DNA of 25,986 bases from a virus, in IMG/VR virus record IMGVR_UViG_3300008262_006041, positions 1 to 25,986 of that record; one strand, written 5' to 3'. Positions 5,562-24,926 of the stretch are shown here, piece by piece. Each line of letters begins with the position of its first letter. Within the stretch, counting starts at the first letter, position 1. The notes beneath the pieces were generated by a model. It did no database searches. It saw only the letters and a program-made list of their open reading frames with translations, and was not told the DNA's origin. The position numbers were made by a program, and so were the translations under genes.

Positions 5562-5984
5562 ATGGCATACAGCAATAAAGTAATTGATCATTATGAAAAT
5601 CCTAGAAATGTAGGTAAATTTGAAATCGACGACACAATTGGCACTGGCATGGTGGGTGCTCCTGCCTGTGGTGATGTTATGAAACTACAGATAAAGGTTG
5701 ACAATGATACAGGTATTATTACAGATGCAAAATTTAAAACGTATGGCTGTGGATCGGCTATCGCGAGTTCGAGCCTTGTCACAGAGTGGCTCAAAGGAAA
5801 AACTCTCGACGAAGCAGGAACAATCAAAAACTCCAGCATCGCCGAAGAACTAGCTTTACCTCCTGTTAAGATACACTGTAGTATTTTAGCAGAAGACGCA
5901 ATTAAAGCAGCACTAGCAGATTACAAATCTAAACATGATTACGATAACAGAAACAGCAGCCAAGAAAGTCAAGCAACAAATTGA
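5562..5984 (+). CDS. iscU: IscU-type iron-sulfur scaffold protein
   Basis: A 140-aa scaffold on which [2Fe-2S] and [4Fe-4S] clusters are assembled. Cluster ligands are all present: Cys36 and Asp38 in GAPACGDVM, Cys63 in YGCGSA, and His105-Cys106 in KIHCS. The chaperone-recognition motif LPPVK (residues 99-103), bound by the Hsp70 HscA in bacteria, is intact. The family fold ends around residue 126 (ADYKSK); the last 15 or so residues are read through the start of iscA in another frame and look like a tail created by the overlap. A GAGAGG ribosome-binding site and a late-type promoter precede it. No IscS or ferredoxin gene is visible, so the host would supply sulfur and electrons. Confidence 0.95.
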   Translation: MAYSNKVIDHYENPRNVGKFEIDDTIGTGMVGAPACGDVMKLQIKVDNDTGIITDAKFKTYGCGSAIASSSLVTEWLKGKTLDEAGTIKNSSIAEELALPPVKIHCSILAEDAIKAALADYKSKHDYDNRNSSQESQATN

Positions 5985-6255
5985 ACGTAGGGGCAAAGGT
6001 CTAGGCATCATGGTAGGTGTAAGAACCACCGGGTGCTCTGGCCTTGCTTATAAATTAGAATATATAGACACTCCAAACACAGAGCAAATTAAGTACGAAA
6101 GCAACGGTGTTAACATCTTTGTAAATCCAAAAGATTTGCCATATATAGATGGTATGATTATGGATTGGCGTCGTCAAGGCCTTAATGAAGGTTTTGATTT
6201 TATTAACAACAAAGAAAAGGACCGTTGCGGATGTGGTGAATCATTCAGAATCTAA
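5935..6255 (+). CDS. IscA/ErpA-type iron-sulfur carrier
   Basis: A 106-aa A-type carrier that binds and delivers Fe-S clusters to client enzymes. The three conserved cysteines are Cys34 (TTGCSGLAYKLEY) and Cys98 and Cys100 (CGCGESF). It overlaps iscU by 50 bases in a different frame, with the start chosen because the ITITETAAKKVK N-terminus matches the family exactly. The iscU-iscA pair without iscS, hscAB or fdx is a reduced version of the bacterial isc operon. IscA versus ErpA cannot be separated by eye. Confidence 0.93.
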   Translation: MITITETAAKKVKQQIERRGKGLGIMVGVRTTGCSGLAYKLEYIDTPNTEQIKYESNGVNIFVNPKDLPYIDGMIMDWRRQGLNEGFDFINNKEKDRCGCGESFRI

Positions 6256-11092: not shown

Positions 11093-11500
11093 ATGACTTT
11101 AGGAAAAATTAATCTAATTACTCCACCGGACAAATTATATAACTCAAATGTTTCTTATTTGCTAGTTAAACCGTCTACAAAAACCAAAGTTCAATTTCAA
11201 AATATGTTAACTGATTTGGAAGAAGATGTTAATGTCTATGTGTATGACGATTCTGAAAATGATGTTGATTGGTTACTTGGAGTAGCACAAATTGTAGATT
11301 TTGTAGTCATTGATATCGACAATTGTGATCCTCTTACAAAATTATTTGTAGCATTATTGTTAACACAACCAAATGCTCACTATATCACAACTGACGAAAT
11401 TACTCCATACAAGTTAATAAGCAGAAATAGAATTTATAACTTTGATTGGATCAATGAAGTGTTAAATAACACAGACGATGATGATAAAACAGAGGAATAA
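11093..11500 (+). CDS. Unknown phage protein
   Basis: A 135-aa acidic protein starting ITPPDKLYNSNVSYLLVKPS, with YDDSENDVDWLLGVAQIVDFVVIDIDNCD in the middle and ITTDEITPYKLISRNRIYNFDW near the end. It resembles a hypothetical found next to the coiled-coil membrane protein in pelagiphage-like myoviruses. The alternating strand/helix pattern suggests a Rossmann-like alpha/beta fold. The start is taken as ATG 11093, eight bases after the preceding stop. It shares one base with the next start (TAATG). Confidence 0.65.
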   Translation: MTLGKINLITPPDKLYNSNVSYLLVKPSTKTKVQFQNMLTDLEEDVNVYVYDDSENDVDWLLGVAQIVDFVVIDIDNCDPLTKLFVALLLTQPNAHYITTDEITPYKLISRNRIYNFDWINEVLNNTDDDDKTEE

Positions 11501-12237
11501 TGCTTAGTTCTTTTTTGTGGTGGTATGTTTGTTGTACACTGGCAACACTTAGTGTTTCTATCTACTTTCACAGAGGCATAACTCATCGATCACTAACTCT
11601 ACATCCTGCGGTCGAACATGTTTTTAGATTATTGATTTGGTTGTTGTTAGGAATGAATCCGTGGGTGTGGGCAGCAGTACATCGATGGCATCATCAAAAT
11701 TCCGATAAAGAAAATGATATACATAGTCCTAAACAAAAAGGATTTTGGAATTTAATGGTACACGGATACGAAGCAGATATCTTAGAAAAATTAAAAAAAG
11801 ATAACAATTTTTTTGTAAAGTACGGACAAGGTGCTCCGGATGATTGGATAGAAAGAAATGTTTATAGATCTCTACCCAATACTGGACTATATATTATGCT
11901 TGTTATAGATACACTGATATGCGGTGTATGGGGACCATGGGTCTGGTTAGGACACTTTGTGTGGAGAGAATTTATTAATAAAGTTATTGCTGGTGTTGGT
12001 CATCAAATTGGTTACAGAAATTATAATACAGATGATCAAAGTAAAAATAATTTTCCTATAGGTATCTTTATTCTAGGAGAAGAACTTCATAATAATCATC
12101 ATCAAAATGCTAGTAGTCCTAATTTTAGCAGAAAATGGTTTGAAATAGATCCAGCTTGGTATGTTATTAAAATTTTGTGTTGGTGTAATCTTTGTAAATT
12201 AAATTACGCACCAGAGTACTATAAGGATAAACAATGA
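11500..12237 (+). CDS. Membrane fatty-acid desaturase (delta-9 type)
   Basis: A 245-aa membrane di-iron desaturase that would insert a double bond into an acyl chain and so alter membrane fluidity. All three histidine boxes are present: HRGITH (24-29), HRWHH (61-65) and ELHNNHH (195-201), together with the conserved HRSLTLHP after the first box and GVGHQIGYRNY before the third. Hydrophobic helices flank the boxes. It is a little shorter than bacterial acyl-CoA/acyl-lipid desaturases, mainly at the N-terminus. It is coupled to the gene before by TAATG and overlaps rpsU by 4 bases. Electron donor would come from the host. Confidence 0.92.
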   Translation: MLSSFLWWYVCCTLATLSVSIYFHRGITHRSLTLHPAVEHVFRLLIWLLLGMNPWVWAAVHRWHHQNSDKENDIHSPKQKGFWNLMVHGYEADILEKLKKDNNFFVKYGQGAPDDWIERNVYRSLPNTGLYIMLVIDTLICGVWGPWVWLGHFVWREFINKVIAGVGHQIGYRNYNTDDQSKNNFPIGIFILGEELHNNHHQNASSPNFSRKWFEIDPAWYVIKILCWCNLCKLNYAPEYYKDKQ

Positions 12238-12497: not shown

Positions 12498-13079
12498 ATG
12501 CTATCTGATATAATGATAGATTTAGAAACATTAGCCACCTCTCCAAACGCAGCAGTGCTTACTATTGGAGCAGTAAAATTTGATCCTTTTAACAACGACA
12601 TAGACAATTCGACTTGTGAAAAATTATATATTCGAGTTGACCTTGACAGTTGTGATGAACTAGGATTAGAAGTAAATGACGACACTATAGCGTGGTGGGC
12701 ACAGCAGAGTAAAGAAGCACAAGAAGAAGCATTTAGTCCAGAAGGACGAATTCATATTAGAGAAGCATTTAATCAACTGTACAAATTTTGTTGGGGAGCT
12801 AAACGTGTTTGGAGTCATGGTGCCAGTTTTGATACTGTTATTTGTGAAAACATTTTTAGAAAACTTAATAAGGCTTGCCCATGGAAGTTCTGGGAAGTAC
12901 GCTGTACCCGTACACTTTTTGATATAGGTATCGATCCACAGCGTCCTCCAGTGCTAAAGCACCATGCTTTAGAAGATGCTTGGAATCAAACTGTGGGTGT
13001 TCAAAACGTTTTCCAGCGTTTACGTAGCAGCACACAGTTTAATGGAAAATTAATTTCGCCTTTTGCGAATCAGAAATAA
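12498..13079 (+). CDS. DexA-like 3'-5' exonuclease
   Basis: A 193-aa DEDD-superfamily exonuclease related to T4 exonuclease A and the Rv2179c-type 3'-5' exoribonuclease domain. Catalytic acidic residues are visible: Asp8 and Glu10 in IMIDLETLAT, Asp112 in GASFDTVICENIF, and His156 and Asp160 in KHHALEDAWNQ, giving the DEDDh layout. It could degrade host nucleic acid or trim 3' ends. The ATG at 12498 follows a weak GAAAGAG site and a clear promoter. Confidence 0.88.
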   Translation: MLSDIMIDLETLATSPNAAVLTIGAVKFDPFNNDIDNSTCEKLYIRVDLDSCDELGLEVNDDTIAWWAQQSKEAQEEAFSPEGRIHIREAFNQLYKFCWGAKRVWSHGASFDTVICENIFRKLNKACPWKFWEVRCTRTLFDIGIDPQRPPVLKHHALEDAWNQTVGVQNVFQRLRSSTQFNGKLISPFANQK

Positions 13080-13132
13080 ATAAAATTGTACAGCGCCGTA
13101 AGGGCTATACAAAGGACACGAGTCCAAAATAT
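13077..13132 (+). promoter_or_regulatory. Late-type promoter and structured dnaK leader
   Basis: AATAAATA ends at 13082; transcription by the T4 rule would start near 13088, at the foot of a hairpin (TTGTA 13086-13090 pairing with TACAA, with inner AGC/GCT and CC/GG pairs, loop GTAA). A second hairpin GGACacgaGTCC follows at 13114-13125, then the Shine-Dalgarno hairpin described next. Confidence 0.5.
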
Positions 13133-13150
13133 CTTGCTTAACATAAGGAG
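13133..13150 (+). promoter_or_regulatory. ROSE-like RNA thermometer hairpin, dnaK
   Basis: CTTGCTTA (13133-13140), loop ACA, TAAGGAG (13144-13150). The stem has seven pairs including one U-G, with G13136 bulged, and it covers the whole Shine-Dalgarno. The UUGCU stretch opposite the ribosome-binding site with a bulged G is the defining feature of ROSE thermometers. Activity is inferred. Confidence 0.65.
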
Positions 13151-13156
13151 AGAACA

Positions 13157-15025
13157 ATGAGCAAAATCATCGGTATCGATTTGGGTACAACAAATAGCTG
13201 TGTAGCAGTAGTAGAAAATGGCACAGCAAAAGTTATCGAAAATTCAGAAGGCGCACGTACTACACCAAGTACTGTAGCTTACACAGAAAATGAAATTTTA
13301 GTTGGTGCTCCAGCTAAACGTCAAGCAGTAACTAATCCTAAGAACACAATCTACGCAGCCAAGCGTTTCATTGGACGTAAGTTTCAAGAAAGCCAAAATC
13401 ATCTTATGCCTTATGAAGTTATTAAGGCCAGTAACGGTGATGCTTGGATCAAAGCATTAGATAAAGAATTAGCACCTCCACAAATTTCAGCAGAAGTTCT
13501 TCGTAAAATGAAGAAGACCGCAGAGGACTATTTGGGCCATGAAGTTACCCAAGCAGTTATCACCGTGCCTGCGTACTTTAACGACAGTCAACGCCAAGCA
13601 ACCAAAGACGCTGGTAAGATTGCTGGCTTAGAAGTTCTGCGTATTATCAACGAACCAACAGCAGCAGCATTAGCTTACGGAGTTGATAAAGAAAGTAAAA
13701 AGGATCGTAAAGTTGCTGTTTATGATTTAGGTGGTGGTACATTTGATGTTAGTATTATCGAAATTGCTAATGTAGATGGCGACAAACAAATCGAAGTTCT
13801 TTCTACTAATGGTGATACATCTTTAGGTGGCGAGGATTTTGATAATCGTATTATTGATTATCTTGTTGCCGAATTTAAGAAAGAGTCGGGTGTTGATCTT
13901 AGCAAAGACGTTATGGCATTACAACGTCTAAAAGAAGCAGCAGAAAAAACTAAGATAGAATTAAGTAATAGTACACAAACTGATGTCAACTTGCCTTACA
14001 TTACTGCCGATGCTACAGGTCCTAAACATCTTAATGTAAAAATTACTCGCGCTAAATTAGAAAGTCTTGTAGACGATTTAATTCAGCGTAGTCTTGCTCC
14101 TTGCCGTCAGGCAATTAAAGATGCTAATGTCAGTGCCAGTGACATCGATGAAGTTATCCTTGTTGGTGGACAGACTCGTATGCCTAAAGTACAAGAAGAA
14201 GTTGAAAAGCTTTTTGGAAAGGCTCCACGTCGCGATGTTAATCCAGACGAAGCAGTGGCAGTAGGTGCTGCTGTTCAAGGTGCTGTATTAGGCGGTGATC
14301 GTAAAGACGTTCTATTGTTAGATGTTACTCCACTAAGTCTTGGTATCGAAACAATGGGCGGTATCTTTACTAAACTTATTAATAAGAACACTACTATTCC
14401 TACAAAGCATAGTCAGGTATTTTCTACTGCTGAAGATAATCAACCTGCTGTTACTATCAAAGTTGCTCAAGGCGAAAGAGAAATGTTTGCCTACAATAAA
14501 TCACTAGGCGAATTTAATCTAGAAGGCATCGCTCCGGCACGTAGAGGTCAACCACAAATCGAAGTTACTTTAGATATAGATGCTAACGGCATTATGCATG
14601 TTAGTGCTAAAGATAAGAACACTGGTAAAGAAAATAAAATTACTATTAAATCTAACAGTGGATTAACTGACGACGAAATTCAACAAATGGTTAAAGATGC
14701 CGAACTAAATGCCGAGTCAGATAAAAAACAAAAAGAAATCATCGAGACACGTAATCAAGCCGATGGTCTGGTTCACTCAATTAAAAATGATCTAAAAGAA
14801 GTCGAAGACAAATTAACTGAGGAACAAAAAACCTCAATTAATCAAGCTATAGCAGATGTAGAAACTGCTATGGTTGGTGATGACAAAGAAGTTATCACCG
14901 AAAAGTTGAATAACTTGTTTACAGCAAGTCAAGTTATTCAACAGGCAAAGTCCGCAGCTTCTAATGAATCCGGAGATGCTACTACAGTAGATGCGGAATT
15001 TAAAGAAGTTAAGGATCCAGCCTAA
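13157..15025 (+). CDS. dnaK: Hsp70 chaperone DnaK, full length
   Basis: A complete 622-aa Hsp70. The ATPase domain has [56 protein letters not shown] and [13 protein letters not shown]; the interdomain linker is [19 protein letters not shown]; the substrate domain and helical lid follow, and the tail ends [10 protein letters not shown], close to the bacterial DnaK end. No DnaJ or GrpE is seen in the window, so host co-chaperones would be needed. Beyond general folding, it might also act on the phage IscU, which keeps the Hsp70-recognition motif LPPVK. It is preceded by a late-type promoter and a ROSE-like hairpin. A full DnaK is rare in phages. Confidence 0.98.
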
Positions 15026-15029
15026 TAGT

Positions 15030-15050
15030 GTGTAACGCTCTGGGTTACAC
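15030..15050 (+). promoter_or_regulatory. Hairpin in the dnaK-groES gap
   Basis: Perfect 7-bp inverted repeat GTGTAAC (15030-15036) / GTTACAC (15044-15050), loop of 7, extendable by about three pairs. A weak T-rich run follows, so it may attenuate dnaK transcripts or form the upper part of a ROSE-type multi-hairpin leader for groES. Confidence 0.55.
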
Positions 15051-15057
15051 ATTTATT

Positions 15058-15074
15058 CTTGCTTAATAAAGGAG
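15058..15074 (+). promoter_or_regulatory. ROSE-like RNA thermometer hairpin, groES
   Basis: CTTGCTT (15058-15064), loop AATA, AAGGAG (15069-15074). Six pairs with one U-G and bulged G15061 cover the Shine-Dalgarno. It is the same element as before dnaK and hsp20, with a different loop. Confidence 0.65.
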
Positions 15075-15080
15075 AAAATT

Positions 15081-16995
<1,915 letters not shown>

Positions 16996-17005
16996 ATTAT
17001 AGTTG

Positions 17006-17045
17006 TATAAATATTTGTGCGGTGCCCGGGTGGGGCCGCACAAAT
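17006..17045 (+). promoter_or_regulatory. Late-type promoter and 5' hairpin before hsp20
   Basis: A perfect TATAAATA (17006-17013) is followed by a 10-bp inverted repeat ATTTGTGCGG (17013-17022) / CCGCACAAAT (17036-17045). The predicted start near 17019 makes GCGG-CCC/GGG-CCGC a 5'-terminal stem-loop on the mRNA. Confidence 0.65.
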
Positions 17046-17049
17046 AATT

Positions 17050-17067
17050 CTTGCTTAATATAAGGAG
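17050..17067 (+). promoter_or_regulatory. ROSE-like RNA thermometer hairpin, hsp20
   Basis: CTTGCTTA (17050-17057), loop ATA, TAAGGAG (17061-17067). Seven pairs with one U-G and bulged G17053 cover the Shine-Dalgarno. ROSE elements are best known from small heat-shock genes, so this is the expected partner gene. Confidence 0.7.
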
Positions 17068-17076
17068 AAAAATATT

Positions 17077-17517
17077 ATGACACAATTATCACGCCTTGAT
17101 ACAACTGCTCTCAACAGAGCATTAGTTGGTTTCGACAGACTATTTGATACATTCGAAACTAGATTTGCTAATCAACTAACATCAAACTATCCTCCACATA
17201 ACATAATTAAAACAGACGATACTCATTACCAAATTGAAATCGCTGTAGCTGGTTTTAACAAGAACGAAATTCATGTTGAAATCGAACAAGAAATGTTAAC
17301 CGTGAGAGGGGAATCCGATAGCTCTACTGAGTCAAGTACACATCAATACTTACATAGAGGTTTAAGCAGCCGTAGCTTTGTACGTAGTTGGCAACTTGCC
17401 GAACATATGAAAGTAAACGGAGCCGAAATTAAAGATGGTATACTATCTATTAGTTTAGAATATGTTATTCCAGAAGAAAAGAAGGCTCGTGTAATTGACA
17501 TTGTAGAAGTTAAGTAA
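17077..17517 (+). CDS. Small heat-shock protein Hsp20 (IbpA-like)
   Basis: A 146-aa holdase with an alpha-crystallin domain. N-terminal FDRLFDTFETRFANQ, then IIKTDDTHYQIEIAVAGFNKNEIHVEIEQEMLTVRGE, HRGLSSRSFVRSWQLAEHMKVNGAEIKDGILSISLEYVIPEEKKARVIDI; the I-x-I-like end motif is weak (RVIDI). It binds unfolding proteins and would hand them to DnaK, encoded just upstream. Hsp20 genes are common in T4-like cyanophages and pelagiphages. It has its own late-type promoter and ROSE-like hairpin. Confidence 0.96.
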   Translation: MTQLSRLDTTALNRALVGFDRLFDTFETRFANQLTSNYPPHNIIKTDDTHYQIEIAVAGFNKNEIHVEIEQEMLTVRGESDSSTESSTHQYLHRGLSSRSFVRSWQLAEHMKVNGAEIKDGILSISLEYVIPEEKKARVIDIVEVK

Positions 17518-17523
17518 TATAAT

Positions 17524-17547
17524 ATAGGGGAAGGTTACTTCCCCTAT
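17524..17547 (+). promoter_or_regulatory. Strong hairpin between hsp20 and clpS
   Basis: Perfect 10-bp stem ATAGGGGAAG (17524-17533) / CTTCCCCTAT (17538-17547) with loop GTTA. No T-run follows, so it more likely protects or separates mRNA segments than ends transcription. Confidence 0.65.
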
Positions 17548-17566: not shown

Positions 17567-17872
17567 ATGACAGTAGAGTCAGATATTCAAATTGACGAAA
17601 AAGTAAAACAGACAGCCCAAGAACCTAAACATTGGAAAGTAATCTTGTTAAATGATGATTACACTCCTATGGATTTTGTAATTCAGGTTCTTCAAGAAAT
17701 TTTTAAACATAGCCAAGACACAGCTACAAATATTACTATGCAGATACATAATGAAGGAAGTGGAATAGCTGGTGTATACAGTTTCGAAATAGCAGAAGTA
17801 AAAGCTGTAGAGGCCACAACTTTAGCAAGATCAAATGGATTTCCTCTTCAAGTTAAAATGGAGGAAGAATGA
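17567..17872 (+). CDS. clpS: ClpS, adaptor of the ClpAP protease (N-degron pathway)
   Basis: A 101-aa ClpS. The binding pocket for N-terminal bulky residues is intact: LLNDDYTPMDFV (Asn29-Asp30-Asp31) and IHNEGSGIAGVYSFEIAEVKA with His61. It would load N-degron substrates onto host ClpA, or shift ClpAP away from other substrates such as tmRNA-tagged proteins. It follows hsp20 and overlaps heme oxygenase by 4 bases (ATGA), so it is the first gene of a tightly coupled trio. Confidence 0.95.
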   Translation: MTVESDIQIDEKVKQTAQEPKHWKVILLNDDYTPMDFVIQVLQEIFKHSQDTATNITMQIHNEGSGIAGVYSFEIAEVKAVEATTLARSNGFPLQVKMEEE

Positions 17873-18411
17873 GTCTTAGAGAAATAACCAAAGATTTACA
17901 CACAGACGCAGAACGAACTGTTTTTGCTAAAAAACTAGTTACAGGATCTTTGACAACAGAAGAATATGCGAACTATCTTTGGCAAATGGTTCTTGTTTAT
18001 AACGGCATTGAAGTAGCTGCCAACAGTCAAGGTATGCTTAAAAACTTGCCTGATATCGAACGAGCCCATAAAATTTATCAAGACTGTATTGAACTTGTAG
18101 GACCTAATCATAATTTAAAATGGTTACCTGATACTATCAGTTATTATCAGTATCTACTTGCTCTTAATTACAATTCGGAACGCAAGCACCTTGTGAAAGC
18201 TCATTTGTATTGTCGTCATATGGGAGATTTATTTGGTGGTCAAATTATTGCTAAAAAATGTCCTGGTCAAGGTCGTTTCTATCAGTTTAAAGATGCCGAA
18301 AATTTAAAAACTTCTATTAGAGCAGAATTAACAGATGATTTAGGCGACGAAGCAAGAGTAGCTTTTCAATGGGCCATCAAGATAATGAAAGCTTTGAACA
18401 CAGATGAGTGA
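17869..18411 (+). CDS. Heme oxygenase, HO-1 type
   Basis: A 180-aa heme oxygenase that opens heme to biliverdin, CO and Fe2+. The proximal heme ligand is His11 in DLHTDAERTVFAKKL; the distal helix is HMGDLFGGQIIAK (119-125), which keeps the catalytic Asp120 and the flexible glycines but has Phe122 in place of the usual Ser of GDLSGGQ. It is shorter than cyanobacterial Ho1 (about 240 aa), lacking the C-terminal extension. It is translation-coupled to clpS before it and to a bilin reductase after it (8-base overlap), which fixes its role in bilin synthesis and not only in iron release. Confidence 0.93.
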   Translation: MSLREITKDLHTDAERTVFAKKLVTGSLTTEEYANYLWQMVLVYNGIEVAANSQGMLKNLPDIERAHKIYQDCIELVGPNHNLKWLPDTISYYQYLLALNYNSERKHLVKAHLYCRHMGDLFGGQIIAKKCPGQGRFYQFKDAENLKTSIRAELTDDLGDEARVAFQWAIKIMKALNTDE

Positions 18412-19087
18412 TGTTTGGAATACTCTAGTTGATATACAAAAACTATTAGAAAATCAATTTAATGAAACCGGAAGAGAAATATTCGAGCCTGGCATGGATC
18501 GCTTTAACCAGCCTGGTTGGGTTAATCGCGTATGGAGTAGCGATCGTTATCGCAGAGCACACATAGATGTAGTCGATGCCAGAGATACAAAAGGTCTGTG
18601 GATGATGCACTGTTGTGTATTTCCTCATTTACATAATCCTGCCCCGATTTATGGTTTTGATGTTATAGCAGGTAAACACAAAATTACTGGTTGTTTTCAT
18701 GATTTTAGTCCCGCAGGAGACGATGAGCATCCATTAATAGATTGGTTCGCCGGGGAAGCAGTAAAACTACAGTGGAACAAGACTAGAAAGTTACCTGACT
18801 GGGCAGAGCGTATTTTTACTGGTAGTATGATAGCTGCTGGTAATGTACAAGACCAAGAAGAATTAGATCAAATTTTTAAAATTGCTAATCTTAGTATTAA
18901 ACATTATTTGAATGCTGTAGCAGAATCTAACTTTACTCATAAAAATACTACACATAATCAAAACTACTATTGCGAAAATCAAAAGAAAAATCCTCACACA
19001 CCTAAAGTTATGGCCAGTCTTGGCTTAGATGAAGAGGATGTGCGAGTGTTTATACAGGAATGTTTATTTCCAGAAATTAAAGTCTAA
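18404..19087 (+). CDS. pcyX: Ferredoxin-dependent bilin reductase, PcyX-like
   Basis: A 227-aa member of the PcyA/PebS/PcyX family that reduces biliverdin with electrons from ferredoxin. Diagnostic segments: MMHCCVFPHLHNPAPIYGFDVIAG, with His69 and Asp86 matching PcyA His88 and Asp105 (same 17-residue spacing), GCFHDFSP, LPDWAERIFTGSMIAAGN, and the C-terminal NQNYYCENQKKNPHTPKVMASLG plus FIQECLFPEI. PcyA Glu76 aligns with Asp55 (AHIDVVDA). PcyX reductases were described from uncultured marine phages next to heme oxygenase and make phycoerythrobilin; this is the best match by pattern, but PcyA- or PebS-type product cannot be ruled out. The gene end overlaps the convergent minus-strand gene by 11 bases. 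Confidence 0.88.
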   Translation: MSDVWNTLVDIQKLLENQFNETGREIFEPGMDRFNQPGWVNRVWSSDRYRRAHIDVVDARDTKGLWMMHCCVFPHLHNPAPIYGFDVIAGKHKITGCFHDFSPAGDDEHPLIDWFAGEAVKLQWNKTRKLPDWAERIFTGSMIAAGNVQDQEELDQIFKIANLSIKHYLNAVAESNFTHKNTTHNQNYYCENQKKNPHTPKVMASLGLDEEDVRVFIQECLFPEIKV

Positions 19088-22757: not shown

Positions 22758-22794
22758 ATGAGCCAAAATTCTTGACTACCTTCAAAATACCTGT

Positions 22795-22802
22795 TATAAA
22801 TA
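22795..22802 (+). promoter_or_regulatory. Late-type promoter for tmRNA
   Basis: A perfect TATAAATA about 50 bases before the T-arm of the tmRNA; predicted start near 22808. It is nearly back to back with the minus-strand late promoter at 22750. Confidence 0.6.
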
Positions 22803-22821
22803 TACAAATAAAAGAATTGTT

Positions 22822-23117
22822 GTAATCCCTTCAAAGTGAAGGCATTCTGGACGCGGGTTCGACCCCCGCCAGGTCCACCATAAAGTATATTACTAAGAGT
22901 CCAGGTTCAGAGCGTGGCATAGTATACTTTATAATGGGCCTGACATGGTTTCGACAGGGTGAGATAATAGAGACGGCGCAAAACTATAGATGCAAACGTA
23001 TCTACATTCAAGTTCTGGCAAAGCCCAGTTAGCATCGCTGCTAACGACGAAGCTTTTGCTTTAGCTGCCTAAAAAACAGCACTTGCGGGGGCGGCGCCCT
23101 GTCATCCAATAGCCTAA
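22822..23117 (+). ncRNA. ssrA: Circularly permuted (two-piece) tmRNA
   Basis: tmRNA frees stalled ribosomes and tags the incomplete protein. Gene order is permuted: the 3' acceptor half comes first, with T-arm GCGGG-TTCGACC-CCCGC (22853-22869), acceptor strand CAGGTCC and encoded ACCA (22870-22880). An intervening segment follows, closed by TAAAGTATA (22881-22889) / TATACTTTA (22923-22931). Then comes the 5' half starting GGGCCTG at 22936. The two acceptor strands pair over 7 bp with G3-U70, the alanine identity pair. The tag frame GCT AAC GAC GAA GCT TTT GCT TTA GCT GCC TAA (from 23039) encodes ANDEAFALAA, possibly with one more Ala before. The outer 5' limit is uncertain. Confidence 0.93.
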
Positions 23118-23139
23118 CAGGACCTTCGGGTCCTGTTTT
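23118..23139 (+). terminator. Rho-independent terminator of tmRNA
   Basis: Stem CAGGACC (23118-23124) / GGTCCTG (23129-23135) with a very stable TTCG tetraloop and TTTT after it. Confidence 0.92.
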
Positions 23140-23141
23140 AC

Positions 23142-23900: not shown

Positions 23901-24926
23901 ATGCGAAATCTTATCGCAACCGTTTTATTAGCAGTATCCTCTCTAGCATCCGCAGCAGATTTAACCGGAGCAGGTGCTACATTTCCATATCCAATCTATA
24001 GCAAATGGGCCGAAGCATACAAAGCCGCAACTGGTATTGGTTTAAATTATCAATCAATTGGTAGTGGTGGCGGCATCCGTCAAATCAAAGCTAAGATTGT
24101 AGACTTTGGTGCTAGCGATATGCCACTAAAACAAGATGAATTAGACAAAGAAGGTCTAATGCAATTTCCTGCTATTATAGGCGGTGTTGTACCAGTTATT
24201 AACATCGATGGTGTTAGTGCTGGACAACTTAAACTTACCTCAGACGTTATTGCTGATAGCTATATGGGCAAGATTACTAAATGGGATCATCCTAGTATCA
24301 CAGCAATTAACCCAGGACTTAAATTACCTAACGCAAATATCTCTGTAGTTCACCGCAGTGATGGTTCAGGTACAACCTTTATATGGACCAACTGGTTAAG
24401 CAAGACTAATCCGGAATGGGCAGATAAAGTTAAAGATGGTACAGCAGTTAAATGGCCAACCGGTGTAGGCGGTAAAGGCAATGAAGGCGTAAGTGCTGTA
24501 GTTCAACAGTTAAAAAATAGTATCGGTTATGTAGAATATGCTTATGCTAAACGCAACAAGATTCCACACGCACAGGTTAAAAATCGTGATGGCAATTTTG
24601 TTCAACCTAGTGATGATACATTCAAAGCCGCAGCAGCCAACGCAGACTGGAACAATGCTCCAGGAATGTATTTGTTACTAACAGATCAGAAAGGCAAGGA
24701 TGCTTGGCCTATTACTGGTGCTAGTTTTATCCTTATGCACAAGCAACAAGCTGACGCACTAACAGGTCGTGCTGTACTTAAATTCTTTGATTGGAGTTAC
24801 AAGAACGGTGCCAAGATGAGTGAAGATTTAGAATATGTTCACTTGCCGCAGTCAGTTATCAAATTAGTACAAGATAACTGGAAGAAGGATCTTAAAGGTC
24901 CAGACAACAATCCAATCTGGAGATAA
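23901..24926 (+). CDS. pstS: Periplasmic phosphate-binding protein PstS
   Basis: A 341-aa PstS, the phosphate-capturing component of the Pst ABC transporter. Signal peptide MRNLIATVLLAVSSLASA, then DLTGAGATFPYPIYSKW, IGSGGGIRQIKAKIVDFGASDMPL and HRSDGSGTTFIWTNWL, which carry the Ser, Asp, Arg and Gly/Thr contacts to phosphate. Length is typical. PstS is a known accessory gene of marine cyanophages and pelagiphages, thought to raise phosphate uptake in infected cells using the host PstCAB. Here it is followed after 4 bases by a phosphate-selective porin, extending the idea to the outer membrane. Confidence 0.97.
   Translation: MRNLIATVLLAVSSLASAADLTGAGATFPYPIYSKWAEAYKAATGIGLNYQSIGSGGGIRQIKAKIVDFGASDMPLKQDELDKEGLMQFPAIIGGVVPVINIDGVSAGQLKLTSDVIADSYMGKITKWDHPSITAINPGLKLPNANISVVHRSDGSGTTFIWTNWLSKTNPEWADKVKDGTAVKWPTGVGGKGNEGVSAVVQQLKNSIGYVEYAYAKRNKIPHAQVKNRDGNFVQPSDDTFKAAAANADWNNAPGMYLLLTDQKGKDAWPITGASFILMHKQQADALTGRAVLKFFDWSYKNGAKMSEDLEYVHLPQSVIKLVQDNWKKDLKGPDNNPIWR

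Follow-up and report, generated by a model that had tools for sequence, protein, structure and literature searches.

The window, by which we mean the whole 25,986-base IMG/VR fragment analysed, carries three closely packed genes on its plus strand. clpS (17567..17872), coding for an N-degron adaptor for ClpAP (PF02617, E=2.3e-32), is followed by the gene of a 180 aa heme oxygenase (HO, 17869..18411; PF01126, E=1.3e-19), which lies directly upstream of the gene of PcyX, a 227 aa ferredoxin-dependent bilin reductase (18404..19087). clpS and HO overlap by 4 nt (ATGA) and HO and PcyX by 8 nt (ATGAGTGA); the open reading frames, coordinates and overlaps of an earlier note on this DNA were all reproduced. 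The gene set upstream of clpS consists of bS21, an exonuclease and, on the same strand as clpS, dnaK (Hsp70, 622 aa, 13157..15025; an open reading frame with homologs in the same place in most relatives), groES (15081..15368; PF00166, E=4e-32), groEL (open reading frame 15343..16995, with its true start probably at about 15379, MNAKIVTF) and hsp20 (17077..17517; PF00011, E=1.3e-19), which encodes an IbpA-like small heat-shock protein with the equivalent of IbpA Arg93. Farther upstream there are genes for a Fe/Mn superoxide dismutase (1598-2149), NrdA/B, glutaredoxin, IscU and IscA (5562-6255) and a fatty-acid desaturase (11500-12237). On the other side of the block, a PstS-like protein was recognised by sequence reading only at 23901-24926.

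The reductase matched the Fe_bilin_red family (PF05996) with E=2.2e-15 and 57.4 bits (cut-off 31), and its nearest solved structure was the PcyX 5owg (E=2.7e-69), with PcyA structures at about 1e-14 (2d1e, 7e-15). In the alignment to PcyA, D55 (codon 18566-18568), H69 (18608-18610) and D86 (18659-18661) fall onto E76, H88 and D105, confirming the previous reading that His69 and Asp86 are kept and that Asp55 stands in place of PcyA Glu76. H69 and D86 were present in all 213 aligned family members and D55 in 205 of them, and the Asp55 column holds Glu in the five PcyA references (5/5). Wegner et al. (PMC11480375) name Asp55 as the PcyX-specific catalytic residue. Furthermore, a FastTree phylogeny of 90 sequences, which left out PebS, PebA/B and alphaproteobacterial PcyA, nested the published PcyX 5owg in the clade of the window and placed cyanophage and Synechocystis PcyA outside. 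The phylogeny proposed in the earlier note was thus carried out for PcyA and PcyX, and the structure match, the residues and the tree uphold its description of a PcyX-like reductase paired with HO. Family, tree and Asp55 together support the assignment as PcyX, whose product would be phycoerythrobilin (PEB). Among the relatives, L040:10001-11342 holds two tandem bilin reductase genes, the second of which shares 38% identity with the window PcyX and, like PcyA, has Glu at the Asp55 position; Tyr or Cys replaces Asp55 in the PcyX relatives at L205:6827 and L209:6840.

The two proteins encoded before PcyX also keep their functional residues. The ClpS pocket residues N29, D30, T33 and H61 (E. coli Asn34, Asp35, Thr38 and His66) were kept in 98/98 sequences, so that by its N-degron pocket the window ClpS is a probable N-recognin, with putative ClpA binding and substrate delivery. 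The heme oxygenase has the proximal His (H11) and the GDxxGG distal helix (G119-D120, G123-G124) of the HO-1 type; H11, D120, G123 and G124 were found in 131/131 sequences and G119 in 128 of them.

Relatives of the window PcyX are encoded in 279 IMG/VR stretches, and in 78 of the best 80 of these the order hsp20-clpS-HO-PcyX recurs, with dnaK upstream in nearly all. In non-redundant loci, hsp20 and clpS were adjacent in 80/82 and HO and PcyX in 71/78, while clpS and HO were direct neighbours in 75 of the 81 loci holding both, 59 of them with the ATGA overlap; the proposed search for the clpS-HO-reductase order in other phage contigs was therefore positive. The exonuclease and dnaK just upstream of the block were adjacent in only 12/66 loci. 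dN/dS for HO and PcyX was about 0.02-0.10 in ten sampled pairs, wherever synonymous sites were unsaturated, which points to purifying selection on both genes. The clpS-HO adjacency together with this low dN/dS argues against a chance arrangement, and the conservation counts are not independent events, since the loci share ancestry. ClpS relatives of at least about 54% identity have HO as the next gene and most of those below have hsp20-clpS without it, a pattern that indicates that hsp20-clpS is the wider pair, to which HO-PcyX was added in one set of lineages. Mosig-like PcyX loci carry HO-PcyX without clpS. In L005, L164 and L165, HO and PcyX are separated by an insertion of two genes for fatty-acid desaturases. 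Six PcyX matches in bacterial genome contigs came from MAG contigs that are short or phage-like, and in four of these hsp20-clpS flanks the pair. Such phage-like contigs with HO-PcyX (L234-L239) were probably misplaced in the bins of Halobacteroidaceae, Pirellulales, Marinimicrobia, Rickettsiales and other bacteria. As a bilin reductase was also found in 0 of the 399 sampled Pseudomonadota genomes, bacterial carriers were dismissed, and PcyX is phage-borne as far as sampled.

Each of the three chaperone units of the window has a predicted RNA-thermometer leader on the plus strand. The hsp20 leader (17016..17082) matched Rfam RF02523 (ROSE_3) with 44.4 bits against a cut-off of 43, and it has the two hairpins, the UUGCU/AGGA hairpin and the downstream hsp20 of a ROSE element. 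The dnaK leader (13070..13160) forms a hairpin and then a UUGCU...AAGGAG hairpin over the ribosome site. This leader and that of groES (15016..15084) scored 41.8 and 46.1 bits, respectively, with R1, a covariance model made in this analysis, and both lie outside its training set. An Rfam search of these two leaders gave no match at E<=1; we call them ROSE-type rather than members of ROSE because they match only R1. Covariation in the hsp20 leaders of 62 relatives was 0.316, compared with 0.152±0.009 in shuffled alignments and at most 0.09 with slid partners, and it came mostly from within the first hairpin. In a 400 kb and a 364 kb contig the dnaK and hsp20 leaders were its only matches below E=1e-3, and over 99 loci (1.39 Mb) 161 of 162 matches at E<=0.01 were at chaperone starts (158 directly and three on inspection, where the listed start of the reading frame was too long). 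Those at dnaK and groES had no part in training the model. The sole match away from a recognised chaperone start was L225:5174-5245. The coupling to heat-shock genes that was observed earlier is thus confirmed and is conserved across loci, and it reaches beyond clpS to dnaK and the hsp20-clpS-HO-PcyX block with their ROSE-type leaders.

The predicted accessibility of AAGGAG in these leaders rose from 0.14 at 5 °C to 0.33 at 45 °C; the corresponding values were 0.47 and 0.59 for a set of 105 other leaders with AAGGAG, only one of which contains the UUGCU motif. Shielding of the ribosome site is thus predicted to be stronger than in other AAGGAG leaders, the hsp20 leader is predicted to open gradually as it warms, and temperature-dependent translation of dnaK, groES and hsp20 is an in silico prediction. 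In addition, hsp20 leaders matched R1 in all ten named phages tested, at E<=3.4e-4 in S-SM2, S-SKS1, MED4-213, Atu_ph07, PA5oct, Mosig, S-RIM8, Paride and Phosso and weakly in ACG-2014f (E=0.0024); Rfam flagged none of those scanned. These phages are cyanophages and phages of Pseudomonas, Agrobacterium, Sinorhizobium and Pelagibacter, and the R1-matching leaders before hsp20 include L319:8363-8446 (Mosig), L320, L321, L322 and L324-L329. In this regard, Arg93 of IbpA is essential for IbpA to bind its own leader and repress its own translation (PMC10474464). Arg occupied the corresponding column in 148/148 aligned Hsp20 rows, where the E. coli IbpA reference is a 99.5% match to a RefSeq sequence annotated as ibpA with ROSE; this conserved residue may also be structural.

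The transcription signals around hsp20 and clpS bear on whether the bilin pair follows the thermometers. A sigma70 promoter (TTGACA-17-TATAAT, a 12/12 match; 17495..17523, plus strand) precedes clpS, and such a perfect promoter was found at the 3' end of hsp20 in 19/72 loci compared with 0.6% of other gene ends. This weakened the idea that the bilin genes are governed by a ROSE leader and nothing else: given the clpS promoter and a leader that shields the hsp20 start only, HO and PcyX need not follow temperature. The search for a strong promoter in the hsp20-clpS gap came up empty in roughly 70% of loci, and loci of this kind probably rely on the hsp20 transcript. HO and PcyX therefore belong physically to the block in nearly all loci, and their control by the thermometer, suggested by position only, is unproven. 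The gap between hsp20 and clpS also contains a perfect 10-bp hairpin (ATAGGGGAAG/CTTCCCCTAT; 17524..17547, plus strand; fold -16.7 kcal/mol) that lacks a U-tract. The hairpin is present in 70/72 loci and was ruled out as a terminator, as only 4/72 have a U-tract. Just before the hsp20 leader, TATAAATA (17006..17013, plus strand) is a weak hint of a T4 late promoter; late-like boxes were not enriched in the window (4 found, 2.6 expected) and occur in 18/78 hsp20 leaders.

Regarding the host, the window encodes outside the operon a permuted tmRNA of betaproteobacterial type (22767..23140, plus strand; RF01850, 133 bits) with the tag ...ANDEAFALAA. The window GroEL showed 75% identity to its nearest relatives among 399 genomes, all from Pseudomonadota; three genomes of about 2 Mb with GroEL at this identity have tmRNA tags ANDER[FY]ALAA and no beta_tmRNA match at the cut-off, so that the agreement with the window is through the tag peptide only. 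tmRNA type and GroEL relatives point to, and do not prove, a betaproteobacterial host, and a cyanobacterial host was rejected on the same two signals. The other genes of the window are not cyanophage-like either, in line with the earlier note, which saw no further sign of a cyanobacterial host.

Partner genes were sought in the long relatives. ClpP was found in 8/10 long records and Clp_N proteins of ClpA size in 6/10. AlaS (5-aminolevulinate synthase) was found in 4/10 (G002:345353, G003:382604, G005:105151 and G006:4121), tens of kb away from HO-PcyX, and not in G001, G004, G008 and G009; beside HO-PcyX in the window there is no reading frame of alaS size. GAF and CpeT were both lacking from the nine contigs of 75-436 kb that were examined besides Mosig, and we rejected a phage photoreceptor or lyase for them. 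The ferredoxin families Fer2 and Fer4_10 were also absent from these nine contigs, so a phage electron donor was likewise rejected and PcyX would draw on host ferredoxin. These absences are provisional, since no contig is certified complete and G007 has clpS with no HO nearby.

Bilin-making phages of heterotrophs are not new. Pelagibacter phage Mosig (MT647606) carries HO-PcyX, and Wegner et al. 2024 (PMC11480375) describe marine and freshwater heme-catabolic cassettes in phages of heterotrophs, some with alaS, and call the purpose of these genes enigmatic. The earlier note rightly saw HO paired with PcyX outside the cyanophages, but the question it left open, why such a phage makes a bilin, concerns a pair already described outside cyanobacteria. 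The pelagiphage cassette (PcyX EBK42635 / 5owg; Mosig) has the same enzymes, order and overlapping genes as the window, and its PcyX (EBK42635 / 5owg) is 51% identical to ours and keeps Asp55. In Mosig, however, the pair is flanked by 2OG-Fe oxygenases and neck genes rather than by clpS and chaperones, and this phage has its own 2Fe-2S ferredoxin. The valaS - hemO - pcyA/X cassette of phage CB_2 likewise combines hemO, a bilin reductase and alaS in large phages of heterotrophs, but its reductase is a PcyA without Asp55, alaS adjoins hemO-pcyA/X rather than lying far from it as in our long relatives, and no clpS or thermometer setting appears in the accessible text (PMC11480375). Pseudomonas jumbo phages PA5oct and Paride, in contrast, have hsp20 followed by clpS, bS21 nearby and a ROSE-like hsp20 leader, with no HO or PcyX beside them.

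As far as searched, what is new is the hsp20-clpS-HO-PcyX order as a conserved block in dozens of distinct phage genomes, that is, a pathway from heme to bile pigment that closes a heat-shock gene set headed by predicted RNA thermometers in large phages of probably non-cyanobacterial hosts, which would tie pigment synthesis to the control of protein damage. Within the same searches, the ROSE-type leaders on dnaK, groES and hsp20 and the partner genes of the long relatives are also new. HO and PcyX were already known from ocean phages, and the heat-shock setting is new in the searches made; no literature combining clpS, heme oxygenase, phage and groEL was found, which is weak evidence of absence, as subscription papers lay mostly outside the search. 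The leaders share with bacterial ROSE elements before ibpA/hsp20 the two hairpins, the UUGCU...AGGAG hairpin and a bulged G, and differ in being repeated before dnaK, groES and hsp20 and in falling mostly below Rfam cut-offs. The phage RNA thermometers listed in 2024, those of lambda cIII, SPbeta blyA and a sigma70 gene of a gut phage (PMC11182007), also shield the ribosome site in a thermo-labile manner, as predicted here, but they are of other RNA types and on other genes. With leaders of ROSE type on the chaperones of many phages, and before hsp20 in every named phage tested, RNA thermometers would be in common use among phages and no longer limited to those few cases.

We hold with about even confidence that clpS-HO-PcyX forms the downstream end of a proteostasis module of the phage, in which heme turnover is coupled to stress and PcyX consumes the biliverdin. 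ROSE-type leaders head dnaK, groES-groEL and hsp20, and the block continues from hsp20 into clpS, HO and PcyX, which would be co-expressed with it and in the window could also start from their own sigma70 promoter. Infection or heat would unfold proteins, which Hsp20 and DnaK/GroEL would handle by refolding and phage ClpS with ClpA and ClpP by degradation, freeing heme. HO would convert this heme to biliverdin, Fe2+ and CO, and PcyX with host ferredoxin would reduce the biliverdin to PEB. The recovered iron could serve the phage iron enzymes (superoxide dismutase and NrdB, with the IscU/IscA Fe-S genes in the same window), and the removal of biliverdin would pull the HO reaction and may yield an antioxidant. 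Iron as the sole aim is disfavoured, as PcyX would then be unnecessary. Of the functions that the earlier note listed, iron release, together with heme detoxification, fits the setting best, and a phage-supplied light sensor is disfavoured by the lack of GAF and CpeT in the nine contigs. The module would be a phage analogue of the heat-shock-inducible heme oxygenase of animals, since heme oxygenase-1 is the heat-shock protein HSP32; this is a parallel and not evidence of descent. The link to hsp20 is not needed for HO-PcyX to function, as Mosig keeps the pair away from hsp20. The conserved fusion to a chaperone/protease block turns the bilin puzzle into a testable stress-response hypothesis.

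A more tentative extension, which we place below an even chance, is that these phages have a heat-shock regulon of their own, with ROSE thermometers on dnaK, groES-EL and hsp20 and with ClpS-ClpA-ClpP and HO-PcyX as members, which would sense heat or aggregation and answer with chaperones, proteolysis and heme/iron recycling. Within such a regulon the leaders would probably be autoregulated by the phage IbpA-like Hsp20 and, if true, it would be a viral counterpart of HSP32. Rather unlikely, in our opinion, is vertical inheritance only, in which HO-PcyX landed behind clpS once and was kept for its own use in iron or pigment metabolism, with no tie to heat shock. The loci with a clpS link are confined to a few related clades, more distant phages hold hsp20-clpS without HO, Mosig-type phages have the cassette elsewhere, and about a quarter of loci have a promoter of their own before clpS, all of which agree with it. 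However, clpS and HO stay fused while neighbouring genes turn over, the start/stop overlaps are preserved, and in the roughly 70% of loci lacking a strong hsp20-clpS promoter the cassette probably needs upstream transcription.

The remaining explanations fare worse than the proteostasis module. A supply of the bilin as chromophore to a host photoreceptor or other bilin-binding protein, which would alter light signalling, seems improbable, even if a phytochrome can be loaded by the HO-PcyA pair of a freshwater phage (PMC11480375). The contigs of nine relatives lack a GAF domain and CpeT, and the neighbouring genes are chaperones, not regulators. To our knowledge, PEB is also not a normal photoswitching phytochrome chromophore. 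The most specific alternative, to which we give a slim chance, is a rewiring of tetrapyrrole synthesis in which phage ClpS with ClpAP would remove host glutamyl-tRNA reductase (GluTR), phage AlaS would take its place as the source of 5-aminolevulinate and HO-PcyX would clear surplus heme; GluTR is a putative substrate of the phage ClpS. In plants GluTR is bound by ClpS1, and in bacteria Clp and Lon are responsible for its turnover (PMC6597238). AlaS is encoded in four of the long relatives, and ClpA and ClpP in most of them. The host signals are betaproteobacterial, and betaproteobacteria are expected to use the GluTR route. Against this, AlaS was not found in four other long relatives and is distant from the cassette where present, and there are phages with hsp20-clpS and no HO. 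Light harvesting of the cyanophage type, with PEB feeding the phycobilisomes of a cyanobacterial host, is barely credible, since, even though PcyX expressed in Synechococcus can load phycobilisomes (PMC13197396), the tmRNA is of betaproteobacterial type, the GroEL is nearest to genomes with ANDER[FY]ALAA tags (among Pseudomonadota, the only group sampled), CpeT is lacking and PcyX groups apart from cyanophage PcyA.

Lastly, in the 364 kb contig among the long relatives (G004), ARAGORN called a tRNA with anticodon CUA as tRNA-Pyl (L281:10196-10271), which might serve this jumbo phage to suppress amber codons.
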